DNA of 64,000 nucleotides from a virus, in IMG/VR virus record IMGVR_UViG_3300007760_000005, positions 27,175 to 91,174 of that record; one strand, given 5' to 3'. Below, one piece after another: positions 1,561-47,878 of the stretch. How positions within the stretch are numbered: position 1 is the first letter of the stretch; each line of letters starts with the position of its first letter. The notes beneath the pieces are model-generated. The model ran no database searches, was not told the DNA's origin, and saw only the letters and a list, made by a program, of their open reading frames with translations. Position numbers and translations under genes: made by a program.

Positions 1561-1845
1561 ATGAGGATTGCCTTCCTGTCCATCTTGCTTGCTTGTGTGG
1601 GGTGTGCTCACACCTCTGCTCTTGAAAAGCGTTGCCGCCCCCTTGTGGGGGAGATTTTAGCTGTACAAGCTGAAAGGGACAGGCTTTCTGGTCAGATGGG
1701 TATGGCAACCCAAGCGTTCGAGGCAGGTACAATTACCCGCCAAGAACATGAGTCAGAGTTTCAGACTTGGTTAGCTTCGGAAAGAAGGCTTCACCAGCAC
1801 GTGACCAGCTTATACGACCACGCTTACGCTACTGGTTGTCTTTAG
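1561..1845 (+). CDS. Small lipoprotein with helical body, possible outer spanin
   Basis: 94 residues. A short hydrophobic signal (MRIAFLSILLACVGC) ends in Cys residues at 11 and 15; LLAC fits a lenient lipobox. The mature part is helical and charged, with EKRC, ERDRLSGQ and a Cys near the end. The ATG at 1561 is chosen because it places the signal peptide at the N-terminus; the open frame upstream to 1510 runs through the terminator. Its 3' end overlaps the convergent regulator gene by 17 bases. Candidate roles are an outer-membrane spanin, a superinfection-exclusion lipoprotein or another host-envelope protein. No partner inner spanin lies beside it. Confidence 0.6.
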   Translation: MRIAFLSILLACVGCAHTSALEKRCRPLVGEILAVQAERDRLSGQMGMATQAFEAGTITRQEHESEFQTWLASERRLHQHVTSLYDHAYATGCL

Positions 1846-2425
1846 GTGGGATGTCCAACACCCCTTCTGAAAGAGTCTTGGCGTTCTCATTGAATCGCCG
1901 CACCCACGGAAGCCATCGCTCGATAGTGGCCTTACGAGGAACGGTCTTGCCATTGATCCACTGGTTTACCGTGGGAGTGCTCGACTCAAGCTGCTTCGCC
2001 AGCCAGCTTTGAGAGATGCCGAGGATCTTGGAATGGCGGCGAAAGCCTTCCATTTCATACATCCATTCTTCCTCGATAGGGGATTGGTTGATCATAGCGG
2101 CAATCTTCAAAAGACTGTTGCGCTTTGGGGCGGCCTCTTCTCGAACCCAACGGCGAACGGAATCCCGTTCCATACCCAACTTGTTAGCGACATCTACCAA
2201 GTTCAGACCGTTGTCCTCTTGGTATTGGCGCAAAGCGGCAGCAACATCCCCGTCCCCCGTAATGGACTCCGCTGTTTGGATGACACGGGTAAATCGTTCG
2301 TAGGTGTGGTGGGGAAGAGTCCCCTGTCCTGAAAGGATCTTTTCCACATCGGGTTCGGGGACATTGAAGATCCGTCCGAACTCCTCCGCACTGATTTGCC
2401 AGTGCTTGCAGACAATGGAGAGCAT
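1829..2425 (-). CDS. Three-HTH DNA-binding regulator
   Basis: 198 residues from the ATG at 2425, which has an AAGAGGA Shine-Dalgarno; the TTG at 2461 lacks one. Three helix-turn-helix-like units of about 45-50 residues occur in a row: roughly 5-50 (SAEEFGRIFNVPEPDVEKIL), 63-110 (VDVANKLGMERDSVRRWV, XRE/Cro-like) and 126-172 (QSWLAKQLESSTPTVNQWI, also XRE/Cro-like). There is no obvious effector or oligomerisation domain. Phage Cro/CI-type proteins usually carry one HTH, so this tandem form could contact an extended or repeated operator. Two 19-bp palindromic repeats lie in the divergent gap (2557-2595), and a TACC-N16-GGCCCCC element points at this gene. Likely a transcription regulator; repressor or activator cannot be told. 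Confidence 0.8.
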   Translation of the reverse strand: MLSIVCKHWQISAEEFGRIFNVPEPDVEKILSGQGTLPHHTYERFTRVIQTAESITGDGDVAAALRQYQEDNGLNLVDVANKLGMERDSVRRWVREEAAPKRNSLLKIAAMINQSPIEEEWMYEMEGFRRHSKILGISQSWLAKQLESSTPTVNQWINGKTVPRKATIERWLPWVRRFNENAKTLSEGVLDIPPKDNQ

Positions 2426-2503
2426 AAGTCTATTCCTCTTAGAGTAGTTATTCACCAGCAACCGCTGGCTACTATCTTACTGATAAACATGCGGAAAGGT
2501 CAG

Positions 2504-2531
2504 GGGGGGCCGATTTTACGGTTCAGCGGTA
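2504..2531 (-). promoter_or_regulatory. TACC-N16-RGCCCCC element, copy A
   Basis: Read on the minus strand: TACC, 16 bases ending AAAATC, then GGCCCCCC. It points toward the HTH regulator, whose ATG is about 80 bases downstream. It is one of five copies with exactly the same 16-base spacing. A promoter for this gene is the simplest reading. Confidence 0.5.
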
Positions 2532-2556: not shown

Positions 2557-2595
2557 AACTTTAAGGCGCAAAGTTGAACTTTAAGGCGCAAAGTT
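2557..2595 (+). promoter_or_regulatory. Twin palindromic operator-like repeats
   Basis: Two identical 19-bp copies of AACTTT-N7-AAAGTT (2557-2575 and 2577-2595) are separated by one base, giving a 20-bp repeat period, close to two helical turns. They end just before the AGAGG Shine-Dalgarno of the gene at 2610, so a bound protein would block that gene. The divergent three-HTH regulator is the obvious candidate ligand (inference). Confidence 0.65.
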
Positions 2596-2609: not shown

Positions 2610-2921
2610 ATGGCGAAACGAGTAATAACCCAAGTACGGGAGTCAATTTTTGAGGTGTTCGAGGGGTATATCCCAGGCAACACCAAAGCCGAGAAGATGG
2701 CCGTTATCCGTAAGGCTACCTTTACAGGGAAAGGCGACCCTGGAGGTTGGTCCCCGACCGCAGCGGTCGTGATTCACACCGAGTCAGGCATCCCTAACCC
2801 TGCCTATGAGTGTGGTGGTGGTTGGCCGATCACTGAAGGCTGGACCAAAGTTACGGAGTCCTTGAACGGGTATCACTGCGAAACCTACAATGGGGCTGTG
2901 ATGGCCGTGTACGAGTCCTAA
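2610..2921 (+). CDS. Small protein of unknown function under the operator-like repeats
   Basis: 103 residues. The ATG at 2610 is preferred over GTG 2604 because AGAGG at 2600-2604 is correctly spaced for it. The N-terminal 40 residues are basic and helical (VRESIFEVFEGYIPGNTKAEKMAVIRKATF). The remainder is rich in Gly, Trp and Thr, with two Cys and several aromatic residues, suggesting a small beta-rich fold. No family was recognised. It is divergent from the three-HTH regulator and sits directly behind the twin palindromes, so it is probably tightly controlled. Its stop overlaps the convergent lipase stop by three bases. Confidence 0.65.
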   Translation: MAKRVITQVRESIFEVFEGYIPGNTKAEKMAVIRKATFTGKGDPGGWSPTAAVVIHTESGIPNPAYECGGGWPITEGWTKVTESLNGYHCETYNGAVMAVYES

Positions 2922-4122: not shown

Positions 4123-7100
4123 GTGGCTGACGATAAATTTTACTATGGGAAGAGCACAGGCAACCGCCTTTCTGGGGGTGCGAGTATCGGGAAAGCGGTA
4201 TTCAACCCAAACACGATGAGTGCCACCCACGAAAATTTGTTGAAGGTTCCTTTCAAGCCGGGCGTTGATACAGATTCCGCTACGGCGAATGGTTTTCCCC
4301 AAGCTACTATTTATGGCCATATTGTCCCCCCTCGAAAAGATGTGGATCTTCAGGCCCCAAGGATTTTGGCCACCGTTCCGTCAGATCAAGGCTTTTTCAA
4401 CGGAGCCTATCTTCTCAACAATGGGATTCGAGTCATCTTTACGGAAGCCGTGCAAAATGCGGAACTGGTCAGCAACTACCTTTTTCAAGGTAGTGTAGGG
4501 ATTGGAAGTCTCTATATTGAACGTGTTGTGGTGTCCCCTGACAGGAGGTCCGCACACCTTATTTTTGCGGGGAGTGTGTTTGAGCCTGACGGGACTTTTA
4601 GCTTCCCCGATCAATATCTGACTTTGACGCTCAACCACCCTTCGTATTCTCGAAGCCCCATTCAAGACGATGCTGGGAACATGCTTCAAACAGAATCCGT
4701 GGATTGGTATGCGGAGCATATTACACCATGGATTGAATACCTCTACCCCGACCCACAGTTAGCCACCCTTATGACAAACACCTTTAATTGGGTGTTTGAG
4801 ATGCGGTTTTCGGAACATTTGCCGAATAATTCTTGGAGTGCCAATTCTCAGTGGGGGTTTACGCTGAAAGCGAGTGGGGGCCAACAGGCCCCTCTTGATG
4901 TTAAGTTGAAAGCGGTAGAGGCTCTTGATTGGGATTCCGGGAACTTCGGCCCTGAAGACGGGTTCCTTAAAATCGGTCTTTATACCGTAGACCCCTTCGA
5001 GTATTACGGCATACCTGCGGATGCGGCGGCCTTTTATGACAGGTTAGAGCTTGTCTTGAGGCACCCTTATACGATGACAGATCGGGCGGGGAACAGCTTT
5101 CAACCAGAGAGTTCAGTTTATGTTTGGAATGTGAAGTGGGTGTCTTCGGACACGACCTCCCCCGTGGCGACTTTCATCAACCCTTCACCAGTCGTTACAT
5201 ATATTGGTAATGTTGCTCGAACTTCGGACAACGCTTTGATCTCAAACGTGCGGTCAGTGTTGGTAGGGTTTGATGAAGCGGTTGAAAACCCCACCGATCC
5301 AAGTATGTGGAGCGTAAATGGGGAGTCTGGCCTAACCATTTCGGAAGTACATTTGGTGGATAGCCACGAGCATGTCCAAGCCATTACTGTGAAGTTTGAG
5401 GCTAACGCCACAACAGCACCAAACGCAAAGTTCAAACTGTCGCACTTTTTAACAGATGCTAACGGCAACACAGCTACGGAATTGCCTTTAGTGTTGATGG
5501 AAGCTCAGTACCCACAGTTGGCTCAAACTGGGGCGCAAGGGGTTTACCACATCAACCATGAAACTAACGGCGATTGGGACGGTGAGGCACCCGTCCAATT
5601 TACGACTGCCGTTAAACATATGGAGCCAAACGCTCTCTTGGCCTTTTACGAGGGGGCTGGAGTTACAGTTTATACGGTTGGCACCAATGGCGTAGAGACT
5701 GTCGCAACAGATGTGGTTGCTTCTCTTAAGTTTGTTCAACCAATGAAGGACTCCCACCCACGATTTGCGGAACTGACAGACGAGCAGAAGAAGGACGTTT
5801 CCGAACAGATTTGGGCGCACAAACTATCGTTCGACCTTACAACCGTGAGCGGAACCCCGATTCCTTACGGGGATGGGCTGTATCGAATTCGACTCACATT
5901 GAAGCCTTTGTACACTTATGATGGCAAAGGCTACCCTCAGGTTCCTCGTGGCAACCCAAGTGAAACAAACCCCGACGCTCTCGCCCCGCACATGCAGTGT
6001 GCAGGTTGGGGTAACCCACTGTCTTCGGGCCTCTACTCGGACATTTTTTCCGATAGCTGGGACGGTGTGGTTTATATCGATGTTCAAAACCACCCCGAAC
6101 CTGTACCCCCCTTGGAAGTATTGAGTGTTACTCCTTCAGAGGGGAGCACAATCTCGAACGACGGTGGTGTGACCACCTTCACATTCAACCAAGCAATCAC
6201 CAGCATCAATTCTGCGTATGTGAAGGTCAAGGACGCAAACGGTGATTGGGTGCTGTACGACCCTCAAGAGTATGTAAATGTCATTATTAGCGGGTCATCC
6301 GCATCTCTTACTTATTACGGGCCTAATGGTGGTCTGTACCCTGCGGGAGAGGCAGTTAAATTCTGTGTTGATGAGATTACTTTAGCCGCTGACGGTTCGC
6401 TTGCTTACGGCCCGTGGGAAGCCGAGTACGTTTTCGTGGACGGTGAGATTGCAATCACAGATTTGGTCAAAAACGACAACAAGGTCACCCTTTCTGTTTC
6501 CCTTGGCGCAGATGTAAGTAATTGGCGGGTGAAGATCATTTCTTGGGAGGATGAAGATCAATATTTCTACATGGATTGGGATTGGTCTACTGCTAATACG
6601 GAAGTGGAGATCCCTTGGGACTTTGATTTGACAGGAGCCTATACAATCGCAGTTGAGACACAAGTGGTTGGTGGCTGGTCTGGTTTTGAAGCCACCGCTA
6701 CGGTTGACTTCGATTACTCAATTGAAGTCTTTTACAATGTTATTTATGAGCAAGTAGAAGCTAACCAGACCCCCGAACCCACTAAGATCGATCTTGCGTT
6801 TGGGGCGGGCGAAGATGTTTCTTTCTTGGTCCGAACAGGGTCCAACCCAACGGCGACATACAACTTCCCCATCGTAGAGATTCCGTTTGGAAGTGTTGGG
6901 AACGAAACTGACTTTGCGGGGCTGGAGAACTATGCCCGTCAGTATTCCTTTACCGTAGACCAGCCTTTTGATGATGCTTTGGGTCAGATGGTTCCAGGCA
7001 CATATATTTTCACCACTCAAGGGAGCTTTGACTCTTCAGGCACGGTTACCTGTGGGGTGCCGACAGGGGTTTCCTTTGATATTGAGGAAATCGGAGACAC

Positions 7101-10100
7101 TTGGTTTCAACATGGCCGCCATGGGATCAAGCTCGCCCCGGCGGGTGTGTCTTACATGAGCACCTGCCTACTGACACTTGAAACGCCTGACGGAGATAAA
7201 AGTTTCAGTGGGGCATACAGCCATTCGGTTACGGATAGTGGGAAACCCGCTTTCATTTTTGGTCCTTTCCATTGGGATGTGGACACAAATGGTGGTGAGG
7301 ATTTGGACACTTCCTATGCTTATGGGAACAACCCCCCGAACGCCCAAACTGGAACACCTACTCATGTTTTGGCGGGGGTTCATAAGGCGACCTTTGCTTG
7401 GTCAAGCGGAACTACAGAGATCATGGATGTTGAGATCAAGGATCACGGCCTCCATGTAGTGTTCAACGAAATCGGAGACGATGGCCGAGTTGAAGTCACT
7501 GTTACGGAAGATGACCCGAACGGTAAGATGGACACGATTTGGTTGTACAACGATATCCTACTCCCTGTGGGCGGTAGCGCAGCAATGGATGTGGGGTCTA
7601 CCTACACCACCAGTGAGCTTGAGAACGGCACCTACAACTATGTGGTTGAGGGTTACAGCGACACTGAGGAGAGTGGGGCAACTTCACCTTTTGCAGATTA
7701 CGCCATGTATCGTTGGGAAGGCACTTTTGAAGTTCAGAACAAGAAGCCTACGGTTTACAGTTGGGATGCTGAGTACCGCACAGACAGTGGGGATACTTAT
7801 TATGTGCCTTCCTACAACCCAAATGAAGAACTGCCCGTAAAGCAAGGTTCAACAAGCAGTGCTGGAACCATTTACATCAAGTTCAGCCCTAAAGCGGATC
7901 AGGAGACTTATACAAACCCTCCTTGGGTTCATTACAAGCTCGAACCTCTCAATGGCTCTCTCGTAATCGATGAGGGGTATGTGGACCTTACTGCGGAAGG
8001 GGAGGTTGAAAAGTCGTGGTCTCACGAGAATTTCCCTCTCCTAACTAAAGGGACATACAGGCTTTGGCTGACAATGCGGGAAGCGGATAAAACCACGCTA
8101 ATCGGCGGTCTTAATTACAAAGACTACACGATTGATGTGATGGCTCCACGGTATTCAAATACAGGGGCCGTCTCCGGGGCCATTACCCAAAACTACGGGA
8201 GTGAGGAAAATGGCGACCAATACACCACCACAAGTATGTGGAGGTTCCTCGCTTCAGGAGACCATTACGCCCCTCAACATTCTTTTTATGATCCCGCCTT
8301 CAACGCTTTGACTCTTCATTATGACGAGGCGATGGATACAGACACCTTGAAGGTTAAGTCACTTCCCGACCCTCGAACCTCAACTGGTTGGGACGATTGG
8401 AAGAAACACGTGGATTGGGGGATTTTCAGTAGTGATGATAACTACCAATACCGCAAAATTAGGGAGACTGCCGCCGCAGATATTTATGGGAACCGTCAAA
8501 ACAGTTGGACTTCTCAAAAGGTATTCATGGAGAAGATCGACAAGCCTATTTTGGTCGATGTTAGGAACCTCACCCCGGAGGATGTAAATATCGATGCGGC
8601 CCCTCAAGATTATGTGTACAAGGGTCGATTTGGTGGGATCATCCATATGGAGGGGGATGTTTCAACATGGACTGTTGATGGAGATCAACAATGGTCGGAT
8701 GTTGTTAACAGATCGACACAACATTTCTCATATGAAGCCACAGGCAACTCTTATGCCCTTCCTGGAGTAGATCACTGGAAGCAGTATGCGACAGACACTT
8801 TTTACGAAGCGAGTTGTTCTACGAAGACAGTGGTTCTTGAGCTTCATTATTCAGAGGCGTTGGAGCATTCGCCAGAGGTTATCCTTCATGGTGAGCACTT
8901 TGCTCCGATCCTCCCATGGCCCATGCTTGGTGGAGACTTCAGCGGCCCCAAAACCCCCACCTATTTCTTTGGGGTGCCAAAACCACTGGTCCCTAAAGTA
9001 CAGATGAACGCAGGGAAAGGTGGCAGCTATTTTGATCCCTACCCCGTGAGCACCCCTTGGAGTACGGAGCTAAAAGACATTTCGCAGACCTATGTTATCC
9101 ATCGAGCAAGTCTTGATGGGGTTACGGTTGCTTCGGATGAAATGTGCTTTATCAAGCTCTGTGAGAAGGGGTTGGAAACGGCGACTGCTGACTTCAACTA
9201 CTATGCGGGATCGATGGGAACGTATGATCCCCCATCCGAAGTTGGTGGCATCTCACGAACAGACCGAGGGGATACCCGTCTTTGGACATCCGAAGGAACG
9301 GTGGGCAAGGTCGTTCGAGTAGCATTGAACTTTGAGAGTATGTTGTTCGGGAAGGTTTCGGTGATGCCAGTTCCGGGACACCCCGATCAATACGGGATTC
9401 CTATCTGCTTGGAGATTCGGCAAAAGGAAGGCCCTTACGACACAACCCTTGGCCCTGATCGCATAACCTTCTGGTTGCTATGGAACGGGATTAGTGATGA
9501 AGGGGTTGATCTCACAGATAGTTGGGATGTCGATTGGTGGGCGCACAACGATGTTGAGTCCACTGACCGAAGTGTTTATTGGCCCAACAACGATACTGCG
9601 TTGGGTCGGACATTCGAGTTCGCCAATGCGGATCTTAACCTCACACAACACTCGAATCGCAAATCGTTTGTGTGGGATCGTCAAGCCATTGTGGGCTACA
9701 CCCCGCATGTTTATGTGGCCTCGATTGATGTGACTACGGCTGATGGGAGCGACACCGCTTCATTAGAAGAGGGTTCAACGCTTCAGCTAAAGGTCACGGC
9801 TACTTATTCAGATGGGAGCACTGGCGATATTACAAGTTCCACTGGCCTCCAGTGGAACAGTTCATCTGAGACAAATGCTTTGGTTGACGATAATGGTTTG
9901 GTGACAGGCGTTCTTGCTTCGACCTTTGCGACCGAGATTTCTGCTAAAGTGATGGACGCATCAGACAGTATTGCCATTACCGTGACTGACCCTGTTGTGA
10001 CGCTTAGTTCTATCCATATTGTGGATGCCGATGGCCATTTTGACTTCGCAGCGACCGTGGGGGATGCGCTTCAACTAAAGGCTCTTGGGACTTACAGCGA

Positions 10101-30267: not shown

Positions 30268-30620
30268 TGTTCGGAATGTATTTCCTGCCACTTCGATAGA
30301 ATCTCTTCGTACCCGGCATGTGGACCCCCTGTGAGCCACATTTTGTTAGGCTCTTGGTAGGGGGAGATCACAAGTCGTGAGTAGCCTCCGTTTGAGAGGT
30401 ACACAATCCAATCAAAAGAATTGTGCTCGATCAAAGCGGCGGCTGCTTCTTTGTCCATTATTTCTGTGGCAGCGTCTCGCTTGTCTTTACCTGTTAGGTA
30501 GAGGTCGATGGTGTTGACCGCTGAAACAAGGACACTCTCCGCATTTGCGGGAGGTCTTTGAAGTTCCAGAGCGGTACAAACTTTTAGAATGTTTTGAACG
30601 GCTTCTTTTGCTTTATCCAT
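30264..30620 (-). CDS. Small protein of unknown function
   Basis: 118 residues, ATG 30620, overlapping the upstream gene's stop by eight bases, so the two are co-translated. It is soluble, helical in the N-terminal half (AKEAVQNILKVCTALELQRPP, shown in part) and mixed in the C-terminal half with many aromatic residues (FDWIVYLSNGGYSRLVISPYQEPNKMW in outline). No catalytic motif was recognised. It is convergent with the nuclease gene. Confidence 0.6.
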   Translation of the reverse strand: MDKAKEAVQNILKVCTALELQRPPANAESVLVSAVNTIDLYLTGKDKRDAATEIMDKEAAAALIEHNSFDWIVYLSNGGYSRLVISPYQEPNKMWLTGGPHAGYEEILSKWQEIHSEH

Positions 30621-31332
30621 TAGAGGACTCCTTTACGCCTTCGATGAATTTACCCATCTGCGAAGCCAAGGCTTCACGAGCCGCTTGAGCGATGGGGGCG
30701 GCGGTACTGTCATCCTCCCACATGGTCATTTCCCACAAGTTTTCGGAGATGGCGGATTCAGTGGCTTCTTTGACGTTTCTGTGGACCATGAACCACTCAA
30801 ACTCATCTGCTTGGCACCATGCTCGAATCAAGGCGACACAGTCTTCGCCCCAAGGGTGTTCTTCGTGGGGGTTGGAGCGGTGATACCGAAGGTAGTCCTC
30901 TGGATCGTGATCGTACTCATCAACAGCTTCTTTCTGCGCTTCGGTGAGCACCTTTTCGATTTCCGCAATCAAACCCTTTACGGTGACAGGGTACTTGGAG
31001 TTCGCTTCGTCAGCCCATGAGGTGGCTTTACCCTCATTTTGAGAGTGTATCGAGTAATTGAAGGAGTAGAAGTCGCTTTGCGCTCCCGCAAGGATACGAG
31101 AAGGGATGTCATATCCGTACTCCCAAGCTAAAATGTAAGACAGGCCCATATTGAACCAGACACAAGGGAGGTTTTCGATCCGAGAGTCACGAGCCGTGAA
31201 GTAGGCCCGCTTTGCCCGTGAGCAGAAAAGCTCGAACATATCGGGATGCTTGCGAACAAACTCCGTTGTCCATTTGGAAAAAAGTTGTGACCGTTCATCC
31301 ATCGGTGGTTTGGCTATTGCTTTTACATTCAT
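30613..31332 (-). CDS. Unknown soluble protein, partner of the 30264 gene
   Basis: 239 residues from ATG 31332, which follows GAGAGGG; a longer open frame to 31383 has no ribosome site. Mostly helical and acidic, with many Trp, Tyr and Phe: FSKWTTEFVRKHPDMFELF, CVWFNMGLSYILAWEYGYD, then an acidic centre (DEYDHDPEDYLRYHRSNPHEEHPW in outline) and EWFMVHRNVKEATES. The His/Asp/Glu cluster in the middle could bind a metal, but no known motif was matched. The upstream gap also holds a TACC-N16-AGCCCCC element on the other strand. Confidence 0.6.
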   Translation of the reverse strand: MNVKAIAKPPMDERSQLFSKWTTEFVRKHPDMFELFCSRAKRAYFTARDSRIENLPCVWFNMGLSYILAWEYGYDIPSRILAGAQSDFYSFNYSIHSQNEGKATSWADEANSKYPVTVKGLIAEIEKVLTEAQKEAVDEYDHDPEDYLRYHRSNPHEEHPWGEDCVALIRAWCQADEFEWFMVHRNVKEATESAISENLWEMTMWEDDSTAAPIAQAAREALASQMGKFIEGVKESSNG

Positions 31333-31389
31333 GGTTCCCTCTCTATAGGGCCGCCTATTGTTTGGACGGGCCTGCATCCTCAATGGGAT

Positions 31390-31417
31390 TACCGTTAGAG
31401 GTTGAAATTAGCCCCCC
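31390..31417 (+). promoter_or_regulatory. TACC-N16-RGCCCCC element, copy B
   Basis: TACC, 16 bases ending GAAATT, then AGCCCCCC. Fifteen bases after its last C is the GTG of the spanin-like gene, with AAGGAG in between. If transcription starts at the AG, the leader would be about 20 bases. This tight fit supports a promoter role. Confidence 0.55.
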
Positions 31418-31431
31418 CGAAGGAGATTCTT

Positions 31432-31713
31432 GTGAGTAACAGCCACGCACTGATTGACACAGCCAGCAAGATTTTAGCGATCTTGGTGATCCCCCTTATT
31501 TTATGGGCGGTTAGGCTGGAAGTTCAGTTGGCGACGGCGGAGGTCGAACGGCAGAATCTCCAAGTTCAAGTGAAGCAGTTGTCGGACGACAACGCTTCGG
31601 TTTTGGCCTCTCTCCAATCAAATACGGTAGCTTTAGAACGCCTGTCCGAAGCGATGGGTTATGTGAAGCTCCGAGTAGACGAGATTAAAGCGGAGATGAA
31701 CCATGAAAGGTAA
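31432..31713 (+). CDS. Single-pass membrane coiled-coil protein, candidate inner spanin
   Basis: 93 residues from GTG 31432 (AAGGAG six bases upstream). A hydrophobic helix (about 12-29, ILAILVIPLILWAV) near the N-terminus is followed by an entirely helical, charged coiled-coil segment to the end (LEVQLATAEVERQNLQVQVKQ in outline). This is the build of Rz-type inner-membrane spanins. The next gene overlaps by 11 bases and encodes a short protein with a signal peptide ending in Cys, the usual Rz1-type arrangement. Spanins fuse inner and outer membranes at the end of lysis. Role inferred from architecture; no endolysin is visible nearby. Confidence 0.6.
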   Translation: MSNSHALIDTASKILAILVIPLILWAVRLEVQLATAEVERQNLQVQVKQLSDDNASVLASLQSNTVALERLSEAMGYVKLRVDEIKAEMNHER

Positions 31714-44601: not shown

Positions 44602-46725
44602 CTAATACAGCGCAGGGAACCTGCTTTCACATTGACCTTGGTACTTGCGAAGGGTCCACCAGCAGAACTTGAGTAGGTCTTGGTCGCCAGCAAGTAGTTG
44701 AGATTCAGTAAGGGTGTTCATAATGGCGGCATCAGGGGCATTGAACCCTTGGAAGTCCTTTGCGTGTGCGCCATCACAGATGGATTGCATGTATTGAACA
44801 GCGTCAAGGATGTCCTTGATGATGGTAGGGCTGACTACGGTTTGTGAAAACCCGTTGGCCCGTGCCATCCACTTGCTCTTGTTTTGGCCGACTCGTTTCT
44901 GTGCTTTGAGCACAATGACCTTTTGGGCGGCGGCGGCAATACGAGCGTCCCGTTGCTCACGGGTTTCTTGAACGATGTTGACCCCACCGTTTCCTGTCTT
45001 TGCGGTACTGGTCAAGCCACCACACTCTTGTTCCACCGCTCCTTGGATCAAAGCGGCCTTCTTGTCGAGGGTGTTGAGGACATGCAAATCCATCGGGTGA
45101 TCGCTGACCAATCGAACATATTGGAGGTTGGAAGCCGTCTGGCCGATTCTGCAAATGCGGTCTTCGGCCTGAAGATTGAGGGCTGGATTCCATTCGAGGT
45201 CACAGAAAACCATTTTCGAGGCGTGGGTCAGGGTGATCCCGGTGCCACCAGCCTTGATGGTGCAAGCGATCCCTTTGAGGTCGCCAGCTTGGAAAGCATC
45301 GACCGCCTTCTGGCGGTTAGCCTGTGAAGTGTCACCGAGGATGGTAGCCCACCCCTCACGCTCTCCAAGGGCCTCTACGGGTGCTCTGTGGGCCGAGTAG
45401 ACCACCACAGGCTCATTGGCATCCTCGTAGGATTCCACAAGCTCCAAGAGGGCAGGGATACGGTCTTTAGCCAGTGCTGCTCGGACTTTGCTGAAAGCGG
45501 TGAACGAGGGAAGCTCACGGGCATCATATTCCTGCATTTGCGCCCAAGCCTTGTTGACCGTAGCGGTCAGCTTGGAGCCGAGATTGACAATGATGGTTTG
45601 GGTTTGCTTTGGGGGCAGATCGGTAAGGACTTCGGCCTTGGTGCGACGAAGCATGACTCGGCGCAACCGTTCGGGAACCGAAGGGTCGGGAGTGCCAAAG
45701 TGCCATCCGCCCCATCGGTCACGGCTTGTGTCCATGAGGTTGGTGAAGGTGCGGAACCCACCAAAGGTTTCTCTCGACAGCCCAAAGGTGGACAGAACGC
45801 CCCACAGGTCAAACCCTTTGGACATCAAAGGGGTTCCTGTCATGGCCCACGATTTGCCACAAACGGCGGAGAGAACCTTCGTGCGCTTGGATCGCATGGT
45901 TTTGTACGACTTGCACAGGTGCGCTTCGTCAGCGATCAAGGTGGTCTTAGCGAGAACCTTCAACCACAGTTCAGGAACCTTGTGTTCGTCGCCCCATTTG
46001 TCAGTGGGGGTAAATTCTTTGGGCAGAATGTCGTAGTTAATGATGACGACTTCGTTTTCAGCGGGAAGCTGAAAACCATTACGCCCCTTACATACGATGG
46101 GGGTCAGGTCAGGTCGCCATTTCTCGACTTCGTTTTTCCAGTTGAGTTTGATGGTGGCGGGGCAAAGGACGATGGCCCTGCCTTCGATAGCCATGAGGCT
46201 TTGAAAGGTCTTACCGAGGCCCATGTCGTCTCCCAACAGGCATCGGTCATGTTGTGCGAGGAACCGCACTCCGAATTGCTGGTAGCCGTAGGCACCGCCC
46301 ATCATGGCTCGTTTGACGGCTCCAAGGCTGGTAGTGTCCATTTCAACCTTGTTGAAGGCTTCGGGAACATCGAGGTTCAATCGCTCACACGAATTTAGGA
46401 TGCGTTCACGGTGTTTGGGGTCTGTGCTGACCACCCAACACTTTTTCTCACGGTCAAACTTCGCCTTGGGCATTCCACGGAGAATGGGGAGAGCGTCAGG
46501 CTCGTAAGGCATGTAAATCTCGCCCTCTACGGTAATCTCACGGCGAGGCTTTTCATTAGCCTTTACCCGTACTTCCGAGGGGGCATCTTCAATGCACACG
46601 GACGAGTTGCATACCGTCTTATAGCGACCGCCGGGGTTGCCATATGCGTATCCTTGATGCTCGCCCACGGCTTCGCCGCAAAACTCGCATTTCCCTGGAT
46701 ACCTATTATTGTAAACACGCAACAT
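44602..46725 (-). CDS. SNF2-family helicase, SMARCAL1/HARP-like
   Basis: 707 residues from ATG 46725. An N-terminal zinc finger has CEFC and then CNSSVC (about 13-44). A HARP-like segment (about 65-115, YEPDALPILRGMPKAKF and KKCWVVSTD) follows. The ATPase core has motif I GDDMGLGKT (165-173), DEAH (266-269), motif III MTGTPL, then the second half with motif V AGGTGITLTHAS and motif VI QAEDRICRIGQ (519-529). SMARCAL1-type enzymes reanneal DNA and remodel forks, so a role in phage replication, recombination or repair is likely. The C-terminal about 100 residues are helical and unassigned. A TACC-N16-RGCCCCC element faces this gene. Confidence 0.9.
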   Translation of the reverse strand: MLRVYNNRYPGKCEFCGEAVGEHQGYAYGNPGGRYKTVCNSSVCIEDAPSEVRVKANEKPRREITVEGEIYMPYEPDALPILRGMPKAKFDREKKCWVVSTDPKHRERILNSCERLNLDVPEAFNKVEMDTTSLGAVKRAMMGGAYGYQQFGVRFLAQHDRCLLGDDMGLGKTFQSLMAIEGRAIVLCPATIKLNWKNEVEKWRPDLTPIVCKGRNGFQLPAENEVVIINYDILPKEFTPTDKWGDEHKVPELWLKVLAKTTLIADEAHLCKSYKTMRSKRTKVLSAVCGKSWAMTGTPLMSKGFDLWGVLSTFGLSRETFGGFRTFTNLMDTSRDRWGGWHFGTPDPSVPERLRRVMLRRTKAEVLTDLPPKQTQTIIVNLGSKLTATVNKAWAQMQEYDARELPSFTAFSKVRAALAKDRIPALLELVESYEDANEPVVVYSAHRAPVEALGEREGWATILGDTSQANRQKAVDAFQAGDLKGIACTIKAGGTGITLTHASKMVFCDLEWNPALNLQAEDRICRIGQTASNLQYVRLVSDHPMDLHVLNTLDKKAALIQGAVEQECGGLTSTAKTGNGGVNIVQETREQRDARIAAAAQKVIVLKAQKRVGQNKSKWMARANGFSQTVVSPTIIKDILDAVQYMQSICDGAHAKDFQGFNAPDAAIMNTLTESQLLAGDQDLLKFCWWTLRKYQGQCESRFPALY

Positions 46726-46749: not shown

Positions 46750-46777
46750 TACCGATTTGACCCGCAATCAGCCCCCC
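46750..46777 (+). promoter_or_regulatory. TACC-N16-RGCCCCC element, copy C
   Basis: TACC, 16 bases ending GCAATC, then AGCCCCCC, facing the tube gene on the plus strand. Its C-run can also pair with AGGGG a few bases later. Confidence 0.45.
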
Positions 46778-46809
46778 CTTGGAGGGGTTTCTTTGGGGTT
46801 CGATTGGAC

Positions 46810-46837
46810 TACCCGTGAGGGACAAAATTAGCCCCCC
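46810..46837 (+). promoter_or_regulatory. TACC-N16-RGCCCCC element, copy D
   Basis: TACC, 16 bases ending AAAATT, then AGCCCCCC. It is the left half of a large inverted repeat with copy E; the C- and G-runs can also form a hairpin in RNA. Confidence 0.5.
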
Positions 46838-46844
46838 CTTGAAG

Positions 46845-46872
46845 CGGGGGCTGATCTTCCCGTTCAACGGTA
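46845..46872 (-). promoter_or_regulatory. TACC-N16-RGCCCCC element, copy E
   Basis: On the minus strand: TACC, 16 bases ending AAGATC, then AGCCCCCG. It points at the helicase, about 120 bases away, and is the mirror image of copy D. Confidence 0.5.
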
Positions 46873-46966
46873 ATCTAATTAGGAGGATTTTTGTGCGTCG
46901 ATAGCTGGTCTATAGGCCAACCTTCATAGATGGACACCGCAACGTCTGACTATTGGAGATCGACTA

Positions 46967-47878
46967 ATGACCGCAAAGAACACAGATAAGAGTCCACAAA
47001 AAGGACTACAAGGCACCTCGTACCTGTATGACTACGGTACGTCCCCAAACACTCGAACGGCAGTTTCGCAGAAAGTGCGTATTCTGACTCCTGTGTACGG
47101 TGAAAACACTTCTCTACATCAGATGGGTGTTTTGTCCTCTTTTAACCCAAGTCAAAGTCGAACGGTTGAACCTGTTCGTGGTATCGGCTTCGGGGATCAG
47201 GTGGCGGAACTCGTGCCTTCCGTGACGGAGCCTACTACAGGCGACTTTGAGCGGGCGTTGCTTTATCTCTGCAACCTTTGGCAAGCCACTGGCTATGCTT
47301 CAGGTGTAGACGGTCCAGTTCGATCTCTTGCACACCACAGGTGGCCCTTCGACATTGAACAGCAGCTTGTGTTCTCCACGCTTGCGGATTGGGATCTGGC
47401 GGAAGCAAACTCAGGTGCGAGTGGCGCATCGGGCGATTTTGACGGCGGTGTCAAGCAAACAGCCTACGGACAAGTTACCCAAGACGGCAAGGCGGCGGGC
47501 GGATACGCTTCAGGGACGACCGCTTCAGGAACAACCGAAACCCCGAACCCCGACAGTGCGGCACCAGCGTCAAATGCTGGAAATACTAATGACCGAGGCC
47601 ATTCGGCCATCATCACCATGTACGAAGCCTGTTGGTTTACGGCATGGAGCGCATCCTTCGCTAAGGATGCTGGCATGATCATGGAAACAGGGTCGGTAAT
47701 CGTTTCTGATGTCCATGATTTCTCCAGCTACTACGGTGAGTTTCTTGCTACTGGTAATGACCCAACTCTCGGTCAGCTTGGTTCTGTTCGGTTTGGCTCT
47801 ACGCCGATTCGGGGTGGAAGCATGGTGGACGCTGGTGGCACAACGGGTCTTGAAGGCGATATCTCCACGCTCGGATAA
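46967..47878 (+). CDS. Probable tail tube protein
   Basis: 303 residues; ATG 46967 with TTGGAG eight bases upstream. The folded part has EPVRGIGFGDQVAELVPSV followed by FERALLYLCNLWQATGY and YEACWFTAWSASFAKDAGMIMETGSVIVSDVHD (in outline). The G-F-G-D-Q-[IV]-x-E-L-V-P pattern and the 'TGS-V-x-V-S-D' ending fit myovirus tube proteins, and the gene lies between sheath and tape measure as expected. Between is a Gly/Ala/Ser/Thr-rich loop (about 145-205). Tubes are normally 150-200 residues, so the loop is an extra exposed insertion. It would form the inner channel for DNA. Confidence 0.7.
   Translation: MTAKNTDKSPQKGLQGTSYLYDYGTSPNTRTAVSQKVRILTPVYGENTSLHQMGVLSSFNPSQSRTVEPVRGIGFGDQVAELVPSVTEPTTGDFERALLYLCNLWQATGYASGVDGPVRSLAHHRWPFDIEQQLVFSTLADWDLAEANSGASGASGDFDGGVKQTAYGQVTQDGKAAGGYASGTTASGTTETPNPDSAAPASNAGNTNDRGHSAIITMYEACWFTAWSASFAKDAGMIMETGSVIVSDVHDFSSYYGEFLATGNDPTLGQLGSVRFGSTPIRGGSMVDAGGTTGLEGDISTLG

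Follow-up and report, generated by a model that had tools for sequence, protein, structure and literature searches.

A repeated two-box element of a huge phage as a likely phage-specific sigma-type promoter, read opposite to the direction first proposed

What is the function of the short element that is repeated between the genes of this phage, three times within positions 46,750 to 46,872, and toward which genes does it point? The first-pass annotation of the window (the whole 64,000-nt stretch analyzed here) had listed five copies of TACC-N16-RGCCCC, all between genes, and had compared them with either a single-subunit RNA polymerase promoter or a dedicated sigma/activator site. Our search recovered exactly these five copies at the same coordinates and on the same strands, compared with 0.22 ± 0.48 in dinucleotide shuffles of the window (maximum, 2). 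The count stays at five in the full 91,174-bp record (G000), where the backwards pattern, used as a control, gave zero. A position weight matrix built from the five copies scored them at 38.6–45.0 and the next site at 11.0, a gap that marks the copies as a discrete class. All five indeed lie between genes, each in a divergent gene pair, and the conserved box is longer than first reported, with an extended consensus of YTACCGAY-N10-AATYRGCCCCCC.

G000 represents part of a huge-phage genome, with a major head protein and a terminase that are 85% and 66% identical to those of LR745208, an uncultured phage of 485 kb; the head protein also has 38% identity to that of Bacillus phage G. At its right end, positions 74228-91174 overlap G026 (IMGVR_UViG_3300007512_000021) over 16.9 kb at 99.97%, and positions 1-63714 of G026 overlap G042 (IMGVR_UViG_3300007760_000001; 152,523 bp) over 63.7 kb at 99.96%, so that the three contigs represent one phage of at least 243 kb. 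A fourth contig, G044 (36,851 bp), comes from the same metagenome and has the same GC content (0.513); none of its genes is shared at length by the other pieces, and clade homologues exist for roughly half of them. Based on motif, GC content and metagenome rather than overlap, G044 is probably a further piece of the same genome. The known sequence of this incomplete genome amounts to ~281 kb and includes, in G042, predicted proteins of 4345 aa (99851-112888) and 4164 aa (138658-151152).

Exact copies of the element total 26 (17 in G042, 5 in G000 and 4 in G044), with three near copies, all in G044 and each with one mismatch; G026 taken alone has no copy. The fixed spacing noticed at first pass holds throughout, being 16 in 26/26 exact copies and in the three near copies, and other spacings in the range 13 to 20 gave 0–3 chance matches (none at 13, 17, 18 or 20). 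The element was also recovered by a blind search for 4-mer pairs upstream of genes (17 regions; score, 47; best of ten shuffles, 11). When viral contigs were scanned with the correct spacing, G042 came up with multiple copies spread over several stretches, G044 was also returned, and other contigs had single copies; scans at a wrong spacing, which serve as negative controls, gave 16 single-copy chance stretches and 0, with no multi-copy contigs. Across 84,980 cellular species genomes, the motif occurred only once, as a single chance-like copy.

The direction first proposed, toward the genes past the C-run, proved to be reversed. With start codons taken from a home-made gene caller, a gene start lies past the TACC end in 24/24 scorable intergenic copies; at the C-run end, 13 of these copies face a gene start and 11 a stop. 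Tandem-gene contexts favor genes starting beyond the TACC end by 11 to 0. Given this polarity, the functional reading is the reverse complement, GGGGGGGCTRATT-N10-TCGGTA-NNYY, followed by the start codon, with the −10 side proximal to the gene. Shine-Dalgarno sequences come after GGTA, as with GGTACTACGAATAGGAGAGAGGACAACGATG before the helicase gene, and in four copies an ATG follows just 8–9 nt past GGTA, which would place GGTA in the −10 region and make the messages near-leaderless. A translation signal can be dismissed, since one of the G042 copies lies in front of a tRNA-Ala gene. The copies in the window, the genes around them and two sites of a second promoter-like class (class B, discussed below) are as follows.

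2503..2531, functional strand +: site 1, predicted promoter GGGGGGGCCGATTTTACGGTTCAGCGGTA of the 103-aa gene at 2610
31390..31418, functional strand -: site 2, predicted promoter GGGGGGGCTAATTTCAACCTCTAACGGTA of the 239-aa gene ending at 30613
46750..46778, functional strand -: site 3, promoter-proximal copy for the SNF2-type helicase gene
46810..46838, functional strand -: site 4, the helicase gene's second copy, lying further upstream and paired back to back with site 5
46846..46872, functional strand +: site 5, predicted promoter GGGGGCTGATCTTCCCGTTCAACGGTA of the gene at 46967
1829..2425, strand -: regulator gene with two HTH stretches (PHROG 2967 transcriptional regulator, E = 5e-14)
2610..2921, strand +: 103-aa gene downstream of site 1, no PHROG match
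30613..31332, strand -: 239-aa gene downstream of site 2
31432..31713, strand +: Rz-like spanin gene (PHROG 214, E = 0.0019)
44602..46725, strand -: SNF2/helicase gene of 707 aa downstream of sites 3 and 4 (PHROG 62 DNA helicase, E = 5e-89)
46967..47878, strand +: 303-aa gene that huge phages conserve, preceded by site 5 and a class-B promoter-like site
31342..31348, strand +: class-B TCTATAG, 90 nt before the spanin-like gene
46909..46914, strand +: class-B CTATAG of TCGATAGCTGGTCTATAG, 58 nt before the gene at 46967

Since the direction was wrong, the assignment of target genes (regulator, spanin-like, tube and helicase) was affected as well. The helicase gene stands as a predicted target, behind sites 3 and 4, but the regulator and spanin-like genes are on the wrong side, the regulator gene on the upstream, C-run side of site 1 and the spanin-like gene on that of site 2, and neither is an inferred target. 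The TCTATAG located 90 nt before the spanin-like gene is likely its own promoter, making site 2 unneeded for that gene. Sites 3 and 4 form predicted tandem promoters of the helicase gene, whose start codon is 25 nt beyond the GGTA of site 3, with AGGAGAG in between. The leader of the gene at 2610, just past site 1, holds two identical tandem 19-nt repeats that are partly palindromic (AACTTTAAGGCGCAAAGTT; window 2557-2575 and 2577-2595) and possibly serve as an operator.

Sites 4 and 5 form a divergent pair with adjoining −35 boxes, and two more pairs resembling it occur in G042 and G044. This back-to-back placement accounts for the inverted repeat at 46803-46879, which, together with a G-run that faces a C-run in some copies, might suggest a regulator operator, a terminator hairpin or a small mobile element instead of a promoter. 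Such an origin is very unlikely, because copies that stand alone (sites 1 and 2 and the majority in G042) are non-palindromic and form no hairpin, the copies lie upstream rather than downstream of the genes they point to, and flanking duplications were not seen. A terminator or mobile element at sites 4 and 5 was rejected specifically, as the two sites in the functional direction read as two divergent predicted promoters.

Read in the functional direction, the element has two boxes, with GGGGCY at 16 from GGTA and at 18 bp from the TANNNY hexamer, and it differs from the ordinary TTGACA/TATAAT, consistent with the initial remark that it does not follow the host pattern. The fixed spacing and phage-restricted distribution could also be expected of a promoter for a T7/N4-type single-subunit phage RNA polymerase pointing away from TACC, as had first been suggested, but we consider this extremely improbable. 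The gene polarity is opposite, and about ten unconserved bases split two boxes at −35/−10, rather than one contiguous block of ~20–23 bp being conserved. In the known contigs we found no match to PF00940 in a search whose controls also gave no match, an absence of little weight, and the DFDGD/DxDGD motif of multi-subunit RNA polymerases had only chance matches there, none in a plausible protein. An N4-type hairpin promoter was likewise rejected, with inner dyads present in some copies only and not conserved.

The exact motif is absent from related phages. While this first looked like a negative result, a de novo two-box search (any 4-mer pair with constant separation in the regions before genes, no motif being given in advance) then found each relative's own version, giving analogous sets in seven relatives with shuffle maxima of 11–13 each. 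The boxes and scores of these sets are listed here.

LR745208: CTAAAA/CGATAG, score 118
G039: GGCTTA/AGTAGTCT, spaced as GGCTTA-N16-AGTAG, score 81
G012: GACTTAC/GCGTAGA, score 35
G053: GTAAACTT/GCGTAGA, score 30
G040: GGTAAC/GTAG, score 109
G036: GGTAAC/GTAG, score 45
G013: TGCTTA/CGTAG, score 43

The −10-like box contains GTAG or GATAG in all seven, and the −35-like box is lineage-specific. Tandem contexts pooled over the relatives, leaving this phage's set aside, comprised 84 forward versus 6 backward, and the start codon lay a median of 16–39 nt from the box. No two-box set was found in the first 200 kb of G008, though G008 encodes an ECF-like sigma, nor in the 50 kb examined of isolate Tunturi_5, which is too little sequence to conclude. 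G011, a more distant relative (376 kb), contains a different compact motif, TAGT-N4-TTAT, in 40/142 upstream regions. In LR745208.1, CTAAAA-N16-CGATAG occurs about 40 times; this version closely resembles the sigma-28 promoter consensus, generally given as TAAA-N15-GCCGATAA.

This resemblance raises the question of whether a host alternative sigma factor reads the promoters, with the phage merely carrying many host-type copies. The architecture is that of an ordinary sigma-70-family promoter, and sigma region 2 was not detected in the known part of this phage, both of which would suit a host factor. We nevertheless regard this as unlikely: the −35 box differs from phage to phage even though the phages are related, the relatives encode their own ECF-like sigma, and the single occurrence of the motif among the species genomes also points away from a host regulon, although the host may be unsampled.

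The search for a phage sigma factor was productive in part, revealing two sigma-like families, of which the ECF-like one was found only in relatives and not in the known sequence of this phage. The first family is represented by a 199-aa protein encoded outside the window (G000 6997-7596, strand +; window -20178 to -19579), which combines sigma-70 region 4 with a second HTH (Pfam Sigma70_r4, E = 5e-12; PHROG sigma factor, E = 3e-13). Region 2 was not detected in this protein, which is present in 22/29 related records. Directly before it, the gene at 6415-6948 (L006, strand +) is weakly NusG/KOW-like (PHROG transcription antiterminator, E = 1e-5).

Given a Sigma70_r4 protein that lacks region 2 and is widespread among related records, together with the TANNNY hexamer of the element, an appropriation of the T4 middle type might be expected, with a small phage factor such as the 199-aa protein contacting the G-rich −35 box and TANNNY being recognized by the primary sigma of the host. 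T4 middle promoters (MotA box plus sigma-70 −10) likewise pair a phage-specific box at about −30 to −35 with a −10 hexamer, but no MotA/AsiA was identified here, the −10 is TCGGTANNYY rather than TATAAT and the region-4 protein, the sole candidate examined, has no helix that co-varies with the box. Its recognition helix (SQPTVCYRLQRA) instead hardly varies across phages that have completely different −35 boxes, so that −35 specificity could not come from it by the usual route, and the protein is unlikely to set the specificity of the present element (class A); on this ground it was ruled out as the class-A specificity factor. An appropriation of this kind is accordingly rather improbable, and the region-4 protein would fit the conserved CTATAG class better.

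That second promoter-like class, [TC]CTATAG or class B, is enriched upstream of genes here, with CTATAG in 16 upstream regions versus 0.9 expected, and a class-B-like sequence is also present upstream of orthologues of the gene at 46967. Class-B sites precede late or structural genes, with further sites in G042, and the CGGT-N7-CTAT form of the class is also found in G036 and G008.

The second sigma-like family is divergent and ECF-like. It is encoded by LR745208, G039, G012, G053 and G040, and thus by 5/7 relatives with two-box sets, as well as by G008 and G056. In LR745208 its gene lies at 74,153-74,953 of the record. Its members are 267–434 aa long, with long N-terminal extensions, a C-terminal HTH and the region-2 motif GYDPEDVLQEVYKGLL...KSSFGHYVHMV...NYHRK, and the family profile matches the PDB sigma-H factor 3mzy over both regions (E = 1e-9); the proteins themselves are below Pfam cut-offs, save for one region-2 match in G052. 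The HTH varies between phages, as do the −35 boxes. Within the ~281 kb of this incomplete genome that are known, no ECF-like sigma gene was found, and a check of 48 further sigma loci for the motif did not reveal this phage's own. The only local candidate, in G044 at 6294-7457 behind a near copy of the element, is weakly sigma-like, and AlphaFold models of two candidate proteins, made without alignments, were uninformative (pLDDT 38 and 43).

The best overall explanation, to which we assign a probability of roughly 0.82, is that the element is a phage-specific sigma-type promoter in the reversed direction, likely read by a phage ECF-like sigma, and the dedicated sigma/activator site of the first-pass annotation was therefore the right class of explanation. 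The promoter would consist of a −35 box GGGGGGCTRATT, a fixed spacing and a −10 region TCGGTA-NNYY (with the TANNNY hexamer), and transcription would start about 8 nt after GGTA. It would use the host RNA polymerase core and probably drive an early/middle or accessory gene class, with an ECF-like sigma factor encoded by the phage as the most likely source of the −35/−10 specificity; within the clade, this factor would diverge from phage to phage along with the −35 box. Such a promoter is supported by what the sequence shows: the element is repeated with exact spacing, gene starts have a consistent polarity, 26 exact copies occur in what appears to be one genome, and diverged analogous sets exist in seven relatives, five of them with ECF-like sigma genes. 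From these sequence patterns we infer transcription from the element, its start point and temporal class, and a phage rather than a host sigma as its reader.

Several known systems resemble this arrangement in part. Phage-specific sigma promoters have been described for phiEco32 and 7-11 (PMC4331800), where the lytic phiEco32-type phage's own sigma, a distant sigma-A relative, recruits the host RNA polymerase, and where short repeated intergenic promoters were likewise found by comparing intergenic regions (PMC4331800). The phiEco32 promoters have a single extended −10-like box, TAATGTATA, whereas here there are two boxes of different sequence, with exact spacing, a G-run −35 box, 26 or more copies and another −35 box in each relative; the cognate sigma was not found in this phage's known contigs. 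Promoters of ECF (group 4) sigma factors share the −35 and −10 boxes and the narrow spacer, and the relatives' −10 (CGTAG, GCGTAGA) and −35 (GGTAAC, GTAAAC) boxes look ECF-like, as do their proteins with region 2 and region 4 that match sigma-H 3mzy. The boxes of G040, G036 and G053 are nearer to the ECF type than those of this phage, whose −35 box lacks the AAC core and whose −10 is TCGGTA, not CGTA/CGTC, so we did not file the element as an ECF regulon.

Among jumbo phages, minimal sigma factors have been reported for group 2 (T4-like), and group 3, which includes phage G, was said there to have none (Iyer et al. 2021; PMC7824862). The 199-aa protein is comparable to the single-HTH sigma-like proteins of RNA polymerase-less phages in that study, but the present clade, with its phage-G-like capsid protein (38% identity), differs in encoding two sigma-like families. 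Jumbo phages without their own RNA polymerase are expected to use sigma factors at phage-specific promoters (PMC13282480). In the literature that we searched, which is not the whole literature, we found no description of this promoter family.

Transcription in phage-G-like huge phages is, to our knowledge, essentially uncharacterized. Here, sequence alone gives predicted promoters for about 25 genes of one huge phage, and equivalent promoter sets in seven relatives, along with two phage-encoded sigma-like families, can be read in the same way, which offers a route to annotating operons and time classes in uncultured huge phages. With divergent boxes paired with divergent sigma factors, the matching of box and reader can be tested directly in vitro, and the clade would also provide a natural series of sigma/promoter pairs that differ from one another. 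We tentatively suggest, as a possibility that we hold with less than even confidence, that phages of this clade have private promoter codes, each with its own fast-diverging ECF-like sigma and its own −35 box on a shared −10 and spacing, beside a conserved class read by a conserved, region-4-only minimal sigma. If true, promoter specificity would diverge between related phages much like immunity specificities do.
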